A stretch of 36,302 nt of DNA from a virus: the IMG/VR virus record IMGVR_UViG_3300008470_000043, positions 1 through 36,302 of that record, one strand, 5' to 3'. The notes beneath the pieces were generated by a model. It was not told the origin of the DNA. It worked only from the letters and a program-made list of their open reading frames with translations, and did not search any database. Shown piece by piece: positions 4,290 to 25,199 of the stretch. Positions within the stretch are counted from its first letter, which is position 1. Each line of letters begins with the position of its first letter. A program made the translations under genes and the position numbers.

Positions 4290-4820
4290 TTAATACCTCG
4301 ATAAAACTCGGTTATCAAGCAACGCCTGGTACTGAAGCTGCGTTCTTGAGCGTCCTAGATAAACAGTCTTAATGGCCAGCTTTACTGTGGCTCGGATGGG
4401 GATCAAGCCCCGTGTTCGTTTGGTAACGAGACAGTCGTACTTCGTTACCACCCCCTCCCAAGCATCCGGACCAATACTAATGATCGCCTTGGGGGGAGCT
4501 ACGAATTGCCCCAAGCCATCCACGAAAGGCTGGGCATCCTGCCGAGCGAAGGATTCTAAGAAAGCTCGCTGAGGGCCGATACCCACCTGGGCGTGGTGCC
4601 AACTTTCTGTAGCGTCCAAAAGCAACTGGAGGTCTATTGTGTCGTTCGAAATAGTGTTGAACACCGCCGTGGGGCCTGTCGAACCCGGTGGCTCAATCAT
4701 GGTATATTTGGGGGTGACTCCGTGGTTGTCAGTTGTAGGATTGTACTGAAAGTACATAAGGTCTTCCAGCGAATCGTTTATGACACGGCCTATCCACCCT
4801 TTTCGTACTCTGGGGCTCAT
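4290..4820 (-). CDS. Baseplate/tail tube-associated protein, contractile-injection-system type
   Basis: A 176-residue protein encoded between the tape measure and the LysM protein. The N-terminus (RVINDSLEDLMYFQYNPTTD) and the later segments VFNTISNDTIDLQLLLDATES and VKLAIKTVYLG resemble the N-terminal domain of tube-initiator or peptidoglycan-binding-linked tail proteins of contractile injection systems (Afp7-like, XkdP-like). The match is by eye only. In such systems this protein sits between tube and hub. The start overlaps the tape measure stop by four bases (ATGA). Confidence 0.75.
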   Translation of the reverse strand: MSPRVRKGWIGRVINDSLEDLMYFQYNPTTDNHGVTPKYTMIEPPGSTGPTAVFNTISNDTIDLQLLLDATESWHHAQVGIGPQRAFLESFARQDAQPFVDGLGQFVAPPKAIISIGPDAWEGVVTKYDCLVTKRTRGLIPIRATVKLAIKTVYLGRSRTQLQYQALLDNRVLSRY

Positions 4821-7657
4821 GGTTGGTAGCTCGTTTCAAAGTTGGCGTCGAAGAATTCTTGGACCATGGTTTTTGCAAGTGTCCGAGCGTTCTCGTCATT
4901 AACCGCACCGTTCACAGTGATATTAACGTTCTCAACAACAGCACCAGCTGACTTACCACCAATACCGCCGACCATTGAACCAGCGGCGCCAAGAGCTGGA
5001 GAAGGTGTTCCCCTAGTGATCGTATCCGGACTATTCCACTCATCAATAGCGGGCCTTTCCGTTCTTCTCCCAGTCCTCGCTAGGGTAGCTTGCCGCATAG
5101 TGCCCTGGTTAACCCGGTGGTCAAATTCATCGCTGTAGGCAGCACGCTCTTGCGGGGTACTGAAGGGGGAAGCCGCTGCTGCCCCCAATCTTGCCAGCGT
5201 GTCGCCCCCAAGGTCAGGTGTACCGACTCTGTGTATTAGACCGGCTTGTTCTGCCTTAACCCTGGCATTAAGAGCTGACCCCATCCCAAGGGCCAACTTG
5301 ACCAGCGCCCACAATGCTTTTAGTTGGTTCTTTGCGTGCTCTAGGAAACCACTAAAACCGTTCGTAAAACCATCCTTGAACCAATTAGCTACACCGTAAC
5401 CGAACTCGGTTATCACCAGGCCCATTTTAGCTTTTTTAACAGCCCATGCATCCACCCAACCCCACAGGGAAAGGCCCAGCTGGTCACCGACATCCGTCGC
5501 CAGACTCATCAGGTATGCATAACCGGCGATCGCGGCAGCAATGGCAACGGCAACCGCAAATATTTTAACATTAGCTATCAGGCCGGCGGTACCGAGAGCT
5601 AGCATCTTAGTCGTAGCCACAGCTGTCTGAGCTGCGAAGTTGACCATGTATCCAACAAGGACAGCGCCGATTAGGTTGCCGAGTATTTCTAAAGCCCTAG
5701 TGTAGCCAGAAATATCCTTAGGGTCAGCTACCTGTGCGAATAGGCCTATCACTTCCATGAGGGATAAGAACCCGTAAGCCACGACCCCAAGGATATTCTT
5801 TATGTGCCCCCAGAAAAACGTAAATGTCTGTCCGATACCCCTGAATATTTTAGTGAAGAAACCCTTGAATTGCAGAAGAGAGACAACAATATTCTTCAAA
5901 CCATGCTTATCGAGAGTCTTGAAAAGAAGCGTGCTGTTGGGACCGCCCTTACCATCCCACCATTCAATGACACCTTGGACGACCAATTTGATCATCCTGA
6001 AGTTATGTCGGAAACGCTTAGCCATCGTATCAGAACTGTTAGTGACCCAGCTAACCGCACCAACGATGGCGAGCACTCCCACAAGAATCACACCCAACCA
6101 AACAGCGGGAACTATTAGACCCACCAACCCCGACTTTAGGGCTGTAAATGCAAGTGTGATCGCTCCTGCAAAACCTCCCACACCTAACGCTGGACCCAGA
6201 ACCTGTGTGAAGAATAATATTCCGCCTAACCCGAGGAGTGCCAACCCAGAAGCAGTCGCCAGCGCCCCCAATGCCGAAGTGACTATCATCAAGGTTTTCG
6301 TCAGTATCGGATTAGCTTCTGTGATGGAGAGGATAGTATTTAAGAATTCTTTCCACACTGTGAGAGCTTTGGACACGATGCCCATAGTTGACTTACCGAA
6401 GATAGTGGCGATGGTCAGCTTAGAACCTTCAATCAGCTTTGCAATACCTTCTGCAGTAGCAAGGTAGGCGTCTTCCGCTTCTTTCGAAGATCCTGTGGAA
6501 TCAGCAACCGAAGCTGATAGTTCCAGCATCATCTTCTTGGCGCTTTTACCCTCAGTGGTGAGCTTATTGAGCATCAAGATCATGGCGCCAGCTTTTTGCC
6601 CGAACACCCCCGTGAGGCCTTCTAGAGCCTTCTTATCACCACCTTTAGCCAAGAGAGTTTGATACTCCCCGAGAGCTTCCGCTAAGACCACATTGATGTC
6701 TCGGATTTTCCCGGCCTCATCAAACAGGTCAACTCTCATCTGCTGGAAGGAGATCATCCTTCTCCGTAACTCTGACGGATCTAACTCCATGAACTCCTGC
6801 TTAGTCGTGAGTCCCTTCTTAGTCATAAAGTTGCTGATTATCCGTTCATTCCCGATCAGCTTGTTGGACAGGATCGCTACGGATTCACCGGCTTGAGCAG
6901 CTTGCATACCTCCGGCCTTCATGACACCTCCCAAAGCCATCATCGTGGACATACTGGATTGCATCAAAAGCGGAGCTGCGCGAAGGGAGTTCAAGAACGG
7001 AGCCATATGCTCCCAACTCAGGGCTGTCGTTCGAGTAGCGTTGGCCATGGTGTCCATGACCTGCTGAAAAGAAACGCTCTCACTACCAAATTTCTTGATG
7101 GCTGACACCGAGGCTCTAACTGCAGTGTTCATATCTATCAGACCGCCAGCACCCGTAACCATTTGAATGGTCATCGGGAGCAGCTTCAAGGCTTCGTTGG
7201 TATCCAAACCAGCTGTCCTAAGTTGCCTGAACGCTTCCGCAGCACTTGTGGGCGTTTCTATAGTCTTGAGACCAAGGTCTAACATCTCCTTGGTCAGAAA
7301 CTTCATATCGGCGCCAGTTGCCTTAGTCGCAAACTGAACGCGACTCATCGCTGCCTCGAAACCCATGGCCGTAGTGGTAGCGTGAGCGGTCAGACCCATC
7401 ATCTTCTTACCCACAAAGGACAGTGCAAACCCAGCAGTAGCCAAACTAGCCGAGGCTTGCATTGCACTTTTTTGGAGTTTCTTTACAGACTGCTCAGTTT
7501 CACCTACAGCACGGGCAGTCCTTCGGGCAGTGACCTTGATCTTATCCATGGACCGATTGGCCAGGGTGGCCCCGGTAGCGACTCCGGAGGCGTCAAGCCT
7601 TACGAAAATTCCATATAGTGCTCGACTACCACCTGATCCACTTGGGGCAAAAGCCAT
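4817..7657 (-). CDS. Tail tape measure protein
   Basis: A 946-residue protein. The N-terminal 450 residues resemble the TP901/minor-tail tape-measure core: coiled-coil start, then SAAEAFRQLRTAGLDTNEALKLLP, then TALSWEHMAPFLNSLRAAPLLMQSS. The middle has several long hydrophobic segments (about residues 450-530 and 640-710) as in most tape measures. The C-terminus is Gly-rich and ends in a helical segment. The protein sets tail length and is ejected with DNA; at the usual 0.15 nm per residue it suggests a tail near 140 nm. It follows the frameshifted chaperone gene and starts at ATG 7657, just after that frame's stop at 7665. Confidence 0.92.
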   Translation of the reverse strand: MAFAPSGSGGSRALYGIFVRLDASGVATGATLANRSMDKIKVTARRTARAVGETEQSVKKLQKSAMQASASLATAGFALSFVGKKMMGLTAHATTTAMGFEAAMSRVQFATKATGADMKFLTKEMLDLGLKTIETPTSAAEAFRQLRTAGLDTNEALKLLPMTIQMVTGAGGLIDMNTAVRASVSAIKKFGSESVSFQQVMDTMANATRTTALSWEHMAPFLNSLRAAPLLMQSSMSTMMALGGVMKAGGMQAAQAGESVAILSNKLIGNERIISNFMTKKGLTTKQEFMELDPSELRRRMISFQQMRVDLFDEAGKIRDINVVLAEALGEYQTLLAKGGDKKALEGLTGVFGQKAGAMILMLNKLTTEGKSAKKMMLELSASVADSTGSSKEAEDAYLATAEGIAKLIEGSKLTIATIFGKSTMGIVSKALTVWKEFLNTILSITEANPILTKTLMIVTSALGALATASGLALLGLGGILFFTQVLGPALGVGGFAGAITLAFTALKSGLVGLIVPAVWLGVILVGVLAIVGAVSWVTNSSDTMAKRFRHNFRMIKLVVQGVIEWWDGKGGPNSTLLFKTLDKHGLKNIVVSLLQFKGFFTKIFRGIGQTFTFFWGHIKNILGVVAYGFLSLMEVIGLFAQVADPKDISGYTRALEILGNLIGAVLVGYMVNFAAQTAVATTKMLALGTAGLIANVKIFAVAVAIAAAIAGYAYLMSLATDVGDQLGLSLWGWVDAWAVKKAKMGLVITEFGYGVANWFKDGFTNGFSGFLEHAKNQLKALWALVKLALGMGSALNARVKAEQAGLIHRVGTPDLGGDTLARLGAAAASPFSTPQERAAYSDEFDHRVNQGTMRQATLARTGRRTERPAIDEWNSPDTITRGTPSPALGAAGSMVGGIGGKSAGAVVENVNITVNGAVNDENARTLAKTMVQEFFDANFETSYQP

Positions 7658-7664
7658 ACTAACC

Positions 7665-8635
7665 TCACTTCTGATTTTGACGCCGGTCTTCTTCCACGAT
7701 TAACTCGCAGTAGTCCACCCGGCGCTTATTTGGAAGGCGGAGTATCTCCAGCTCCGTCCACCCATAGGTACTAGCTATGAGATGGATTTGCTGGGTCAGG
7801 CCAGTTAGTACTTCGTCTCCGTGCCCCGCCTTCCACCGAAAAAAGATGTCAAATCGACATTTATGTCAAATTTCTTACCGCAGGTACATTTTACAATTTT
7901 CCACTGTCGAAGGCCAGGAAGCTCGGATTGAAGAATTTGAGCGAGGTACCTACGATCTCTAGATTTGAGGGTTCGCATGGATTCCCTATCCACTTCTTCC
8001 AGGTCACCTAGGGAAGTGATGCAAGCTGCAAACATGGCGTCAAAGACAACGGCTGCATTGTCGCCCAGTTCTCCCGCCAACTCTTGGTCCTTACCCGTAG
8101 GAAAACGCAATGTTCCTTCGTGGTAAACCTTGACCACGCCTTTTTCAACAACCCGCAAACCAGCCGGAAGAGTGAAGGCAATTTCCATCTTGTCGTCTTC
8201 CGGCCACTCAACGACATCGAGATCCGCAAACTTAACCTCCTCTTCCCACACAGCCTCACACCTGGGACACTGCCCAGCCATTAGAGCTTCGGTGTCCCCA
8301 CCGAGTTGGAAGATCTTCGACAGAAGGAAATCCCGGTCAACAACCGTCAGCTTACGGGCTAGGGAACGGTCAAACATCTTGTCCGGATTCTGCTTCTGTT
8401 TGAGGTGCCCTTCGACTTCTTGGATACAACGGTTGAGAATCAACGACACCGCTTTGGCGCCGTTGTTTCCAGACTTTTTGCTTGCAATATTGTGATCGTC
8501 AATACCGGACATTTCGTCGATAACAACGTTCCTATACCGCGTACCGTCGATCTCCAAACCTACCGGCAACCTGACGGTATCAGAGACATCATTGTTAGAG
8601 GATTCTTGGGCATCTTCTTGGGGGTCATCGATCAT
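7665..8635 (-). CDS. Tail assembly chaperone, -1 frameshift fusion product (G-T type)
   Basis: This is the predicted long product: 266 codons of the zero frame up to TTC at 7840-7838, then a -1 slip and 57 more codons in the -1 frame from CGG at 7838 to TGA at 7667-7665, about 323 residues in all. The extension includes QQIHLIASTYGWTELEIL and RRVDYCELIVEED, a pattern often seen in short genes before the tape measure of contractile phages. The -1 frame has an upstream stop and no ATG or GTG before the slippery site, so it has no start of its own. Lambda G/GT and P2 E/E' use the same arrangement. Not tested experimentally. Confidence 0.72.
7805..8635 (-). CDS. Tail assembly chaperone, zero-frame product with zinc-binding Cys pairs
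   Basis: A 276-residue acidic protein starting at ATG 8635 with AGGAG upstream. It has an N-terminal beta region (VRLPVGLEIDGTRYRNVVIDEM) and a helical centre. CPRC at residues 123-126 and CTC at 250-252 could bind one zinc. Similar proteins with a C-terminal metal site are found between tube and tape measure genes in contractile phages and injection systems, and are related or analogous to T4 baseplate/tail chaperones; the exact family is uncertain. The last residues after codon 266 are replaced in the frameshift product. Confidence 0.8.
   Translation of the reverse strand: MIDDPQEDAQESSNNDVSDTVRLPVGLEIDGTRYRNVVIDEMSGIDDHNIASKKSGNNGAKAVSLILNRCIQEVEGHLKQKQNPDKMFDRSLARKLTVVDRDFLLSKIFQLGGDTEALMAGQCPRCEAVWEEEVKFADLDVVEWPEDDKMEIAFTLPAGLRVVEKGVVKVYHEGTLRFPTGKDQELAGELGDNAAVVFDAMFAACITSLGDLEEVDRESMRTLKSRDRRYLAQILQSELPGLRQWKIVKCTCGKKFDINVDLTSFFGGRRGTETKY
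7838..7844 (-). other. Slippery heptamer for programmed -1 frameshift
   Basis: On the minus strand the sequence reads T TTT TTC in the zero frame of the tail chaperone gene. It fits the X XXY YYZ rule for -1 slippage. Eleven zero-frame codons remain before the stop at 7805, while the -1 frame is open for 58 codons to 7665. No strong stem-loop directly downstream was obvious by eye. Confidence 0.72.
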
Positions 8636-8685: not shown

Positions 8686-9141
8686 CTATGATTTCTTTTG
8701 TTTGATGCCTTCATTGGCAAAGACCATCGACTGAATGAGAACACCGTTTCCATTAGCATCCAGGACTTCCGTAGACATCTCTTTAGGCCAGGCACGTTTC
8801 ACAGTCCAGGTGTGAACATTAGCTCCGCTCTTGTCCCGGAGGTGGATAACGATGGTCTTTCGATAAGACTCATTATCTCCCTGGCTACCTTCGACTCTAT
8901 CCACGGAGAATATTTCGTCTCTCCAGTTGAGGAAGTCCTCATCTGACGACATACCGCGCTCAAACGTGAGATCGCCGTATGTGGTTTGTCCCGAGAGGTG
9001 GTGGGGAGTTTCATTCTCGCCACCTTCTCGGTATGTGATGTCCTCGGTTGTTTCAGTCAGCCCACCGATCTTAGCGAATCCCGCACGGGGGAAACCGTCA
9101 CAGTCGACTACGAACTTAAAATTGCGATACGGATCTGCCAT
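8686..9141 (-). CDS. Tail tube protein, T4 gp19-like
   Basis: A 151-residue protein matching the T4 gp19 / contractile-system tube family: MADPYRNFKFVVDCDG, then FAKIGGLTETTEDITYREGGEN, then LTFERGMSSDEDFLNWRD, then WTVKRAWPKEM. Length is typical for the family (about 140-165). The subunits stack as hexameric rings inside the sheath around the tape measure. It is coded directly after the sheath gene, the usual order. Confidence 0.93.
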   Translation of the reverse strand: MADPYRNFKFVVDCDGFPRAGFAKIGGLTETTEDITYREGGENETPHHLSGQTTYGDLTFERGMSSDEDFLNWRDEIFSVDRVEGSQGDNESYRKTIVIHLRDKSGANVHTWTVKRAWPKEMSTEVLDANGNGVLIQSMVFANEGIKQKKS

Positions 9142-9170: not shown

Positions 9171-11627
9171 TTACACGATTTCCGTTACTGAAGAACCGCC
9201 AGTGTATTGAGCGATTCGATGGATAATGAATTCGCCCGGTTTATTCGGGGCCAAACCAATCTCAGTGATAACCCTGCCTGCGTCTACGTCAGCCGCATCC
9301 ATAGTTCCGTCTTTGATGCCAATCTTGATGTAGAAGGCATCATCTTTGACGGTGGTCGGGAAAGCGCCATCGTCCAAGAGACTTTCGAGATAGGTTTCTA
9401 TCCGATTGAACAGCTTGCCCCAGAGAGTTGGATTGTTATTCCTAAATACCGACCAACGAGTCGAGTCCACGAGGGATTTCTCAACGAGCTGGAAGAACCT
9501 GCGAACAGGAATGTATTTAAATTTCTGCAGCGTGGAGGCGTCCAGCGTGCGTGTTCCCCAAACCATCACGGGGGAGGTTCGAGTGAACTTACGCAGGACG
9601 TTAATCCCAGCAGTGTTCATCAGTCCATGGTCGTCACCACTGTACTCAGTGACAATGTCCGTAGCGTACTGAATAGTTCCGTATACACCCTCGCCCGCAG
9701 GAGCTTCCCATGGACCAGAACCAGCGGCACTATCCACACGAGCACGAAGGCCCATCATAGCGCCGAGACCTGTGATGGAGCGTGTAGGATTGGAACCTGC
9801 AGCTGTTGGGTCGAACACCTTCTCCCCGCCTGCGTATAGCGCTACGTAGGACGAGTCGAGGCCCAGCACGTTGTTTCGGTAGGCTACAGCAGAAGCAGCT
9901 GACATTCCCGCATCGACATAGGCGAGATACTCAAACCAGATGCGAGACAGGCAGTACTGAGCAGCTGCGTGAACAAGGCCGGCACTGTTGTTGCCCAGTG
10001 TGCAGAGAGGCATCATTTCGTTGATAATGTCCCAAGCATAGAGACCTGTCTTACCGACAGAAGTTCCGATCCAATCAGCATCAGAGATACCAGCTATTTC
10101 GCTAGTTCCGCTGGCAAGGAGGACGGCTGCTGTGTCCGTAGCCGGAAGGTCAGCACCCATACCTGCTACCGCATCTTGGTCGGAAACCACGACGTATTTT
10201 GAACCGAAGTTCTCGTCGTTCATGAGGGTCTCGACATAATTGTCAGCGGTATCGAGCATCGACATTTGACTCCAAGTTTCCTCAAGTATATTGGACCTGT
10301 AAACTTGAACGTCGAACTCCTGTGTCTGAAGCTGAGTGGCAACATCCAAGAAGCCATTGACGAAGGCAACGCTTACGTCCACGAAGAACGTTACAACGCT
10401 GCCAGTAACCACGGTTCGCACTGCGGTTACTTCTTTGTACTCGATGTTGGTGGCGTCCCAGACCTTGATTACTGAACCGACAGTGATACCGCTAGTGGTA
10501 ACCACCGAAATGGCTGTATCGCCTGCGGTGATGTCGGCTACTAAAGAGTTACCTACACCGGAAGCAGCTTGCTTGGAATTCTGGGTGATCTCAGTGGAGA
10601 GGACATTCCCGGCTAAACCCGGAGAAAGAACCCCACGGTAACCAGCTTCGAATTTCAGTGTGGATTGTGTCGCTCCAAGAGCAGCACCGAGGACAACTTC
10701 CACAGACAAGCCGAGGGGTGTCAGAGCAGTTCCACTTGCGAAATCCAACTCCGAGGTGATTCCGGTAGTCGGGGAGGTCATCGTGAAAGTTCCGTCGCCA
10801 TTCACTGCTACCAGTGCGGTGGTGTCGGCTTCGATGACGGTCTCAACTTCAGTGGCGGTAACAGCTGCGATATTCGCAACATCACCGGTACCGGCAGTGG
10901 CTGCAGCCCAAGTCAGGCCGGATGTTCCCGCAGTAATTGCAACAGAACTTCCAGTACCAGCTTGGTCGGACACGATTTTGACATTGGAGGTATCCAGAAT
11001 TGCATACCCACCAGAAAGCTGAGAGTTGATCTGATTGATGATACCTGCTGCCGCAGTGGTTGCTCCTGAGAAAGTGACGAGCTGAGCTGTCCCACCGTTC
11101 AGAGTCACCGAGAAGGTGAGACCTACTTGGTCGGTTACTGGGTACGATGTGGTGTCGACGACGGTTCCGGCAGCTGCGTCGAAAGTAGCAGCCGCTGCTC
11201 CGACGTTATCCACATCCAAGGACAAGGCCATACCCGGAGTCATCACGTAGTTTTGAGCAGAGCCAATTTTGGTGGCCGCTGTCGCAACCTGCGCGTCTGT
11301 CGACGCGGTTCTGTTGGATGCCACTCCCGAATAGGAAGTGTTGTCGTCCAGGTTAGTATAGTTGGCCTGACGAGATGTGATCAGCTCGACGCCACCTTCT
11401 TTGAAGAAATGCTCGGCCTCATACGCAGCGTCACCTCTTGTGGCAACCTCGTATGTCCCGAAAATCTCTTTCCATGCTGCGAACGTACGTGTTCGAGTTG
11501 GAACACCTACTGGACCTTTTTCAGTGATAGCTTGCATCCCACCGAAGCCGGTGGCTGCTGACACGACTGGACCCTCTTGGGAGGTTACTTCTTCAGTATA
11601 CACGTTGGGTGTAGTGTACTGGGGCAT
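9171..11627 (-). CDS. Contractile tail sheath protein
   Basis: An 818-residue protein, longer than many sheaths (about 390-660). The N-terminus (TPNVYTEEVTSQEGP, then GFGGMQAITEKGPVG, then FFKEGGVELITSRQ) and the C-terminus (VWGTRTLDASTLQKFKYIPVRRFF, NRIETYLESLLDDGAFP, DVDAGRVITEIGLAPNKPGEF) are classic sheath cores. Residues of about 110-430 form a large Thr/Ala/Val/Ser-rich insertion, probably one or two surface beta-domains. Start ATG 11627 has GAGGAG eight bases upstream. The sheath contracts to drive the tube into the host. Confidence 0.95.
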   Translation of the reverse strand: MPQYTTPNVYTEEVTSQEGPVVSAATGFGGMQAITEKGPVGVPTRTRTFAAWKEIFGTYEVATRGDAAYEAEHFFKEGGVELITSRQANYTNLDDNTSYSGVASNRTASTDAQVATAATKIGSAQNYVMTPGMALSLDVDNVGAAAATFDAAAGTVVDTTSYPVTDQVGLTFSVTLNGGTAQLVTFSGATTAAAGIINQINSQLSGGYAILDTSNVKIVSDQAGTGSSVAITAGTSGLTWAAATAGTGDVANIAAVTATEVETVIEADTTALVAVNGDGTFTMTSPTTGITSELDFASGTALTPLGLSVEVVLGAALGATQSTLKFEAGYRGVLSPGLAGNVLSTEITQNSKQAASGVGNSLVADITAGDTAISVVTTSGITVGSVIKVWDATNIEYKEVTAVRTVVTGSVVTFFVDVSVAFVNGFLDVATQLQTQEFDVQVYRSNILEETWSQMSMLDTADNYVETLMNDENFGSKYVVVSDQDAVAGMGADLPATDTAAVLLASGTSEIAGISDADWIGTSVGKTGLYAWDIINEMMPLCTLGNNSAGLVHAAAQYCLSRIWFEYLAYVDAGMSAASAVAYRNNVLGLDSSYVALYAGGEKVFDPTAAGSNPTRSITGLGAMMGLRARVDSAAGSGPWEAPAGEGVYGTIQYATDIVTEYSGDDHGLMNTAGINVLRKFTRTSPVMVWGTRTLDASTLQKFKYIPVRRFFQLVEKSLVDSTRWSVFRNNNPTLWGKLFNRIETYLESLLDDGAFPTTVKDDAFYIKIGIKDGTMDAADVDAGRVITEIGLAPNKPGEFIIHRIAQYTGGSSVTEIV

Positions 11628-24557: not shown

Positions 24558-25199
24558 CTACAGGCCGAGGGTTTTTAAAACAAGATGCTGATTGTGGGTA
24601 TAGTGGCGGGAAGTGCCCTGATCTAATAGGAGGTGCCCCATCTCATGCTGTACCAAAGGTCCAAAGGTCTCAAGGTACATAGGCCTCCACTCGACCTCCA
24701 CGACATTCCCATAGGCCAAACCACTGACCACTCGTCGCAGTTTACCCCACCTGAGGATTACGCTTCCTCGCCGTTTGATTCTGCAGATGATGAGCTTATC
24801 GAAAAGAAGGTTGGATGTTCGGTAGGACTCAGGAAAATCATGCTTCGCAATGCTTCGATTTATCCGAATAGCCAAGGTATCCAAAGTAGGCATAACGTCC
24901 TGACGGATGACCCTTCGCATTGGCTCCATGTCCGGATAGCCGCACTCATCAACAAACACCACCGACCGGTGGACAGCCACCACTCTCTTCCGAAGGGCCG
25001 CACGGTTGACAATGGATAACATTGCAGTCCCAGCCATGATTGACGCCAAAGCCAAAACCGATAATTCAGCAATAATTAGCCCAACCAGATGAGCTTCCCC
25101 GTATGTCCAGATAAGGCCTCCCAGTAAGAGTAGGAAAATGGAACTGCCGAGCAAAGCCCAGATAGCACGTGTAGTTGAGGGGTAAACAGTGTCAAGCAT
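24558..25199 (-). CDS. Membrane-anchored HExxH metallopeptidase-like protein
   Basis: A 213-residue protein. Two hydrophobic helices fill about residues 13-33 and 37-64, followed by a basic loop (RAALRKRVV) and a soluble domain. HEMGH at 185-189 matches the zinc-metallopeptidase HExxH motif, and HYTHNQH at 199-205 could give a third ligand. The topology suggests a cytoplasmic or periplasmic catalytic domain tethered to the inner membrane. A perfect AAGGAGG precedes ATG 25199. Its substrate is unknown; host envelope processing or proteolysis of a host factor are options. The C-terminus is only 24 residues past the motif. Confidence 0.7.
   Translation of the reverse strand: MLDTVYPSTTRAIWALLGSSIFLLLLGGLIWTYGEAHLVGLIIAELSVLALASIMAGTAMLSIVNRAALRKRVVAVHRSVVFVDECGYPDMEPMRRVIRQDVMPTLDTLAIRINRSIAKHDFPESYRTSNLLFDKLIICRIKRRGSVILRWGKLRRVVSGLAYGNVVEVEWRPMYLETFGPLVQHEMGHLLLDQGTSRHYTHNQHLVLKTLGL

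Follow-up and report, generated by a model that had tools for sequence, protein, structure and literature searches.

A predicted -1 programmed frameshift in a tail assembly chaperone gene of the T4 gp26/gp51 family

I propose that a programmed -1 frameshift in the tail assembly chaperone gene of this virus yields a short and a long form of a protein of the T4 gp26/gp51 family. Judging from the virus and its relatives at the level of sequence, I would put the probability of this reading at about 93%. The frameshift device itself is already well known in phages. Here it turns up in the T4 chaperone family, where it would link the device to the gp26/gp51 pair and offer a single-gene relative of T4's two-gene system. 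The reading would also set right the products of a gene that routine annotation would cut in two or cut short, and it would connect DUF6760, whose function is unknown, with the extension that a tail chaperone acquires. A first-pass annotation of the same DNA had proposed a -1 frameshift extending a tail chaperone of a distinct family. The frameshift is strongly supported by the conservation of the heptamer and of the -1 frame and by the selection acting upon that frame; the distinct family has to be given up.

The slip site and the two products

The window, by which I mean the whole stretch of 36,302 nucleotides that was analysed, carries on its minus strand the gene order tail tube, chaperone, tape measure. 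Directly upstream of the chaperone gene lies a gene for a tail tube protein of the T4 gp19 type (8686..9141; PF06841, E 7e-33), and directly downstream lies the gene for the tape measure protein (4817..7657; PhageMin_Tail, E 4e-12; phrog_28, E 1e-24). A contractile tail sheath protein is encoded on the same strand at 9171..11627 (Phage_sheath_1C, E 3.5e-8; phrog_23). With neighbours of these kinds, the gene belongs to a phage with a contractile tail.

The zero-frame ORF (7805..8635, minus strand) encodes the short chaperone, TAC-N, a protein of 276 amino acids identified by matches to PF12322 and to phrog_508/phrog_150 and by matches of its predicted fold to viral models in BFVD. Read from 8635 to 7805, it ends in ...NVDLTSFFGGRRGTETKY. 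Near that end the slippery heptamer T TTT TTC stands in phase (TTTTTTC at 7844-7838; 7838..7844, minus strand), separated by 10 sense codons from the TAA, which is the 11th codon. Counted from 7844, the -1 frame runs for 59 sense codons to a TGA at 7667-7665. Upon slippage into this frame base 7838 would be read twice, and 57 residues (RWKAGHGDEV...DRRQNQK) would be added to make the long form, TAC-NC, of 323 amino acids; the extension, 57 codons and the TGA, occupies 7665..7838 on the minus strand. Its frame has no start of its own to speak of: the earliest ATG, GTG or TTG is a GTG 17 codons before the end, within the conserved motif. The ATG of the tape measure gene follows at 7657, 7 nt beyond the -1 stop. 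On all these points (a heptamer in the zero frame 11 codons from the stop, a -1 frame open to 7665 with no ATG or GTG before it, a product ending just ahead of the tape measure gene) the first-pass annotation was right.

Under the proposed frameshift, most ribosomes would halt at the TAA and release the 276-residue short chaperone. In a minority, the tRNA-Phe on TTT and on TTC of T TTT TTC would slip back by one base and re-pair on TTT TTT, and these ribosomes would read 57 further codons to give the 323-residue form, with its helical DUF6760-like domain, ending just ahead of the tape measure gene. If lambda gpG/gpGT is a guide, the short form, in many copies, would cover the tape measure protein; the domain added in the scarcer long form would recruit tail tube subunits; and both forms would be absent from the finished tail. 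It is from lambda, too, that I infer slipping by ribosomes rather than by RNA polymerase, the ratio or efficiency with which it happens, and the binding roles of the two forms. A stimulatory structure 3' of the site is not part of this picture for the window's clade: downstream RNA structure was sought in the window and in its T TTT TTC clade, and the candidate was rejected, fold z-scores being near 0 and none significant.

There are well-studied systems with which the window can be compared. P2 E/E' uses a -1 shift at a T-run site ahead of the tape measure gene, the same device in the same place, although the match of the P2 gpE family (Phage_TAC_7, PF10109) to the window protein falls below the cut-off (E 0.014; 15.9 bits against 25). 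Lambda gpG/gpGT and other tail assembly chaperones extended by -1 frameshifting have been described (Xu, Hendrix and Duda 2004; review PMC5009743). Lambda and the window have in common a site before the tape measure gene, an in-phase slippery heptamer close to where the short ORF ends and a -1 extension with no start codon; the window protein differs in having a Cys4 pattern and in belonging to the T4 gp26/gp51 family, and no similarity of the window proteins to the gpG/gpT families was found by sequence. The Pakpunavirus/Vandenendeviridae phage Adele (PMC12846349) shares the layout, with a contractile tail, TAC-N and TAC-NC proteins, a -1 shift at a T-rich site and even a downstream ORF that annotation has wrongly set apart as its own gene. 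Adele differs in its invariant motif, GTTTTT, and its likeness to the window is drawn from layout.

How surprising is such a heptamer? The bare string T TTT TTC occurs in the window 8 times against 8.7 expected, no more rarely than chance would have it. In phase it occurs once in the 43 called ORFs, which comprise 10,495 codons of the window. The same ORFs contain 21 in-phase canonical heptamers, 2 of them with a -1 frame that outruns the gene's own stop, and only the chaperone heptamer opens a long -1 frame beyond that stop. An in-phase TTTAAAA at window position 24579 (minus strand), four codons ahead of a stop and with a -1 frame that adds 8 codons, is probably there by chance. Given Ser-Phe-Phe, codon usage makes T TTT TTC an event of probability about 0.05 for one gene, and its significance must therefore come from conservation in relatives.

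Conservation in relatives and competing explanations

Relatives were drawn from viral contigs, and once duplicates had been removed the site was complete in 23 distinct loci, of which the window is one. An in-phase canonical heptamer stands at the same protein position in every one of the 23, as T TTT TTC in 17 and as G GGT TTT in 6. The -1 frame likewise stays open in 23 of 23, starting at the heptamer and running past the zero-frame stop, and it encodes a related motif, which in the window's clade reads Y-G-W-T/S-x-x-x-I-L-R-L-P. Positions of the extension that relatives keep are R-W/R, A, W, L-P and Y. The two clades differ in the distance from heptamer to zero-frame stop, 9-10 codons against 24-25, yet the position of the slip in the protein is constant. 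The first-pass annotation had looked to homologues for a conserved heptamer and a conserved -1 frame, and both are present in all 23 distinct loci. It had also supposed that the heptamer might be lost with the frame unchanged; none of that kind was seen among the -1 relatives, since G GGT TTT, another canonical heptamer, stands in the six that have no T TTT TTC. Relatives with their second frame in +1 do lack the heptamer.

When bacterial genomes were scanned with an alignment of the zero-frame proteins, no relative turned up, and a search by DNA and protein for direct named-phage relatives of the window found none. It was the portal protein, together with more distant loci, that led to named relatives.

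Past the zero-frame stop, pN/pS in the -1 frame ranges from 0.08 to 0.57 and is below 1 in 16 of 16 locus pairs. In these pairs the values are mostly similar to those of the upstream gene, and other frames mostly do not have them. By this measure the -1 extension is translated and under purifying selection.

In all six of the G GGT TTT loci (L022, L024, L047, L049, L050 and L054) a hairpin, TTTGGGTC...GACCCAAA, with as many as 8 bp, begins about 5 nt 3' of the heptamer. A clear stimulatory hairpin is limited to this clade; the window clade, with its T TTT TTC, lacks one. As a sequence pattern, G GGT TTT with a hairpin some 5 nt downstream is suited to ribosomal slippage.

Might the -1 frame instead be a small gene in its own right, with translation beginning by reinitiation at the stop of the chaperone gene or at a near-cognate codon such as CTG or ATC? 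Starts at such a junction do exist: the second gene begins with an ATGA in Bacteroides phages BS162P1 and MT835482, and at one locus, L012, an ATG overlapping the zero-frame stop is a possible start for the second frame. Moreover, DUF6760 is a Pfam family and so presumably has annotated members that stand alone. The window, however, has no ATG, GTG or TTG in the -1 frame ahead of the conserved motif, and neither do L001, L002, L022, L024 and others. The frame is open and conserved all the way back to the heptamer in every relative, and the same domain is fused in frame in the gp51 of T4-like phages. The heptamer is retained even where an ATG is present. The first-pass annotation had counted an independent start in homologues against frameshifting; such starts do occur in the two distant Bacteroides phages, but both keep T TTT TTC in place. 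I regard a separate gene as improbable.

Less probable again is slippage of RNA polymerase on the run of six T, by which some transcripts would gain or lose a base and the long protein would arise by ordinary translation. The site is indeed a homopolymer, with seven T in phage XacN1, but bacterial transcript slippage usually needs about nine, and six is short by that standard. Against it, too, six relatives have GGGTTTTT followed 5 nt on by a hairpin, a pattern suited to ribosomes, and every site is in the X XXY YYZ phase. A sequencing or assembly error, or decay that split one gene into two frames, would look alike in a single genome if one indel were involved, but it is already refuted by the relatives, with the identical split position in 23 distinct loci from many samples and selection in both frames. 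Programmed -1 frameshifting by ribosomes remains by far the best account.

The T4 gp26/gp51 family and DUF6760

The chaperone encoded in the zero frame is of a known type, that of the T4 gp26/gp51 family (PF12322, phrog_150), and this is where the first-pass annotation, with its distinct family, went astray. The window protein itself matches PF12322 (T4_baseplate) weakly, just above the cut-off (E 2.2e-5; 24.7 bits against 24.5), and 12 of 12 relatives match it at E<=0.1, the best at 5e-11. A predicted model of the zero-frame protein (pLDDT 83) matches BFVD viral proteins named baseplate hub or gp26, gp26 of Aeromonas phage 25 being one example (E 3.4e-6); among solved structures, compared by sequence and by fold, there was no match. 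The Cys4 pattern that the first-pass annotation saw in the protein is real. Its first half, Cys123/Cys126 (8258..8269, minus strand), and its second, Cys250/Cys252 (7880..7888, minus strand), are invariant in 12 of 12 aligned proteins.

Vladimirov et al. 2022, as cited in PMC10885494 and PMC12846349, had already recognised the gp26/gp51 family as the chaperones of tail assembly in T4-like phages. T4's layout, with one gene short and the other long and fused, is credited in the same two papers to Vladimirov, Gautam and Davidson 2022, and I make no claim to its discovery. A review (PMC5009743) describes the G-T frameshift as conserved among long-tailed phages, T4 excepted. T4 obtains from two genes the short and long forms that the window phage would obtain from one gene and a frameshift.

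Both gp26 (208 amino acids) and gp51 (249 amino acids) of T4 fall in PF12322. Along the 282 positions of phrog_150, gp26 covers 14-235 and gp51 covers 13-280, and gp51 is therefore a gp26-like domain with a C-terminal extension. T4 gp26 ends at the position equivalent to the slip site of the window. When 22 frameshift or second-frame extensions were made into a profile and this was aligned by hhalign with one of seven gp51 C-termini, the result was a probability of 82%, an E of 1e-5 and a score of 32.3, against 17.7 for the best of 300 column shuffles. The C-terminus of T4 gp51 itself (L059:7056-7229) is part of this profile match to the frameshift extensions. As a single sequence against a first, narrower extension profile it gave no match; only the two diverse profiles aligned. 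A frameshift at T4 gp26 was also considered and rejected, neither alternative frame at the end of gp26 resembling the extension.

In the extension of the window, the -1 peptide resembles DUF6760 in a stretch (IHLIASTYGWTELEILRLPNKRRVDYCELI) at 7671..7799 on the minus strand, where the match to PF20546 (E 4.2e-4, 20.8 bits) is under the curated cut-off of 27. The extensions of 9 of 11 relatives match DUF6760 at E<=0.1. Three helices are predicted for it, with a mean pLDDT of 80. The profile match of the T4 gp51 C-terminus to the frameshift extensions suggests that DUF6760 serves long tail chaperones as their C-terminal domain, also in cases where annotation shows it as a gene on its own.

The number of PF12322 genes per genome fits the division between T4-like phages and the rest. 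There are two in 7 of 7 T4-like phages and one in 16 of 17 frameshift or second-frame records, where records showing two PF12322 rows hold pieces of one gene and where the 17th, that of L034, has the gene but in a form missed by the Pfam model. The window record, possibly a fragment, has one copy and larger relatives have one, so that they lack the two-paralogue layout of T4-like phages. Two paralogues, short and long, are a trait of T4-like phages and not of the whole PF12322 family.

Variation in how relatives make the pair

I lean modestly towards a wider view, in which this is one homologous family whose long form is made in at least four interchangeable ways, the pair of short and long forms being conserved rather than the mechanism, and DUF6760 being the C-terminal chaperone domain everywhere. 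The four would be a -1 shift (the window clades, XacN1 and LR756511), a +1 shift (the Streptomyces Borockvirus phages, those of the SP-15/LIS04 type and LR756508), an overlapping start together with a slippery site (the Bacteroides phages) and two paralogues (T4-like phages). Relatives with -1 and likely +1 shifts would be well suited to a study of what governs the ratio of short to long form.

The second frames in +1 of the Borockvirus and SP-15/LIS04 phages are under purifying selection in closer pairs and are candidates for +1 shifts. In the Streptomyces Borockvirus phages (L008:17464-17721, L028, L029, L030 and L031) the extension in +1 mostly has no start codon. Their zero frame ends CTG TTT CGC/CAG GAA CTC TGA/TAA, where a +1 shift is possible at TTT C or at CTC with the stop that follows it. 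In LuckySocke, the annotated start of gene 91 removes the conserved motif.

A second frame in +1 is also found in Listeria phage LIS04 (L055:3569-3877), Bacillus phage SP-15 (L066:1817-2140), vB_SagM-GXN1 (L067:1850-2218) and a further locus, L057:3629-3931. This group has possible internal ATGs in its second frames. The region in LIS04 is an unannotated gap ahead of the tape measure gene.

In the Bacteroides phages BS162P1 (L009:18281-18610) and MT835482 (L058:10040-10364), the ATG of the second gene, which lies in -1, overlaps the stop as ATGA, yet shortly ahead of that stop, by a few codons, an in-phase T TTT TTC persists. The jumbo phages XacN1 (L068:2244-2486), with T TTT TTT, and LR756511 (L056:3702-3929), with T TTT TTC, have the same -1 layout as the window.
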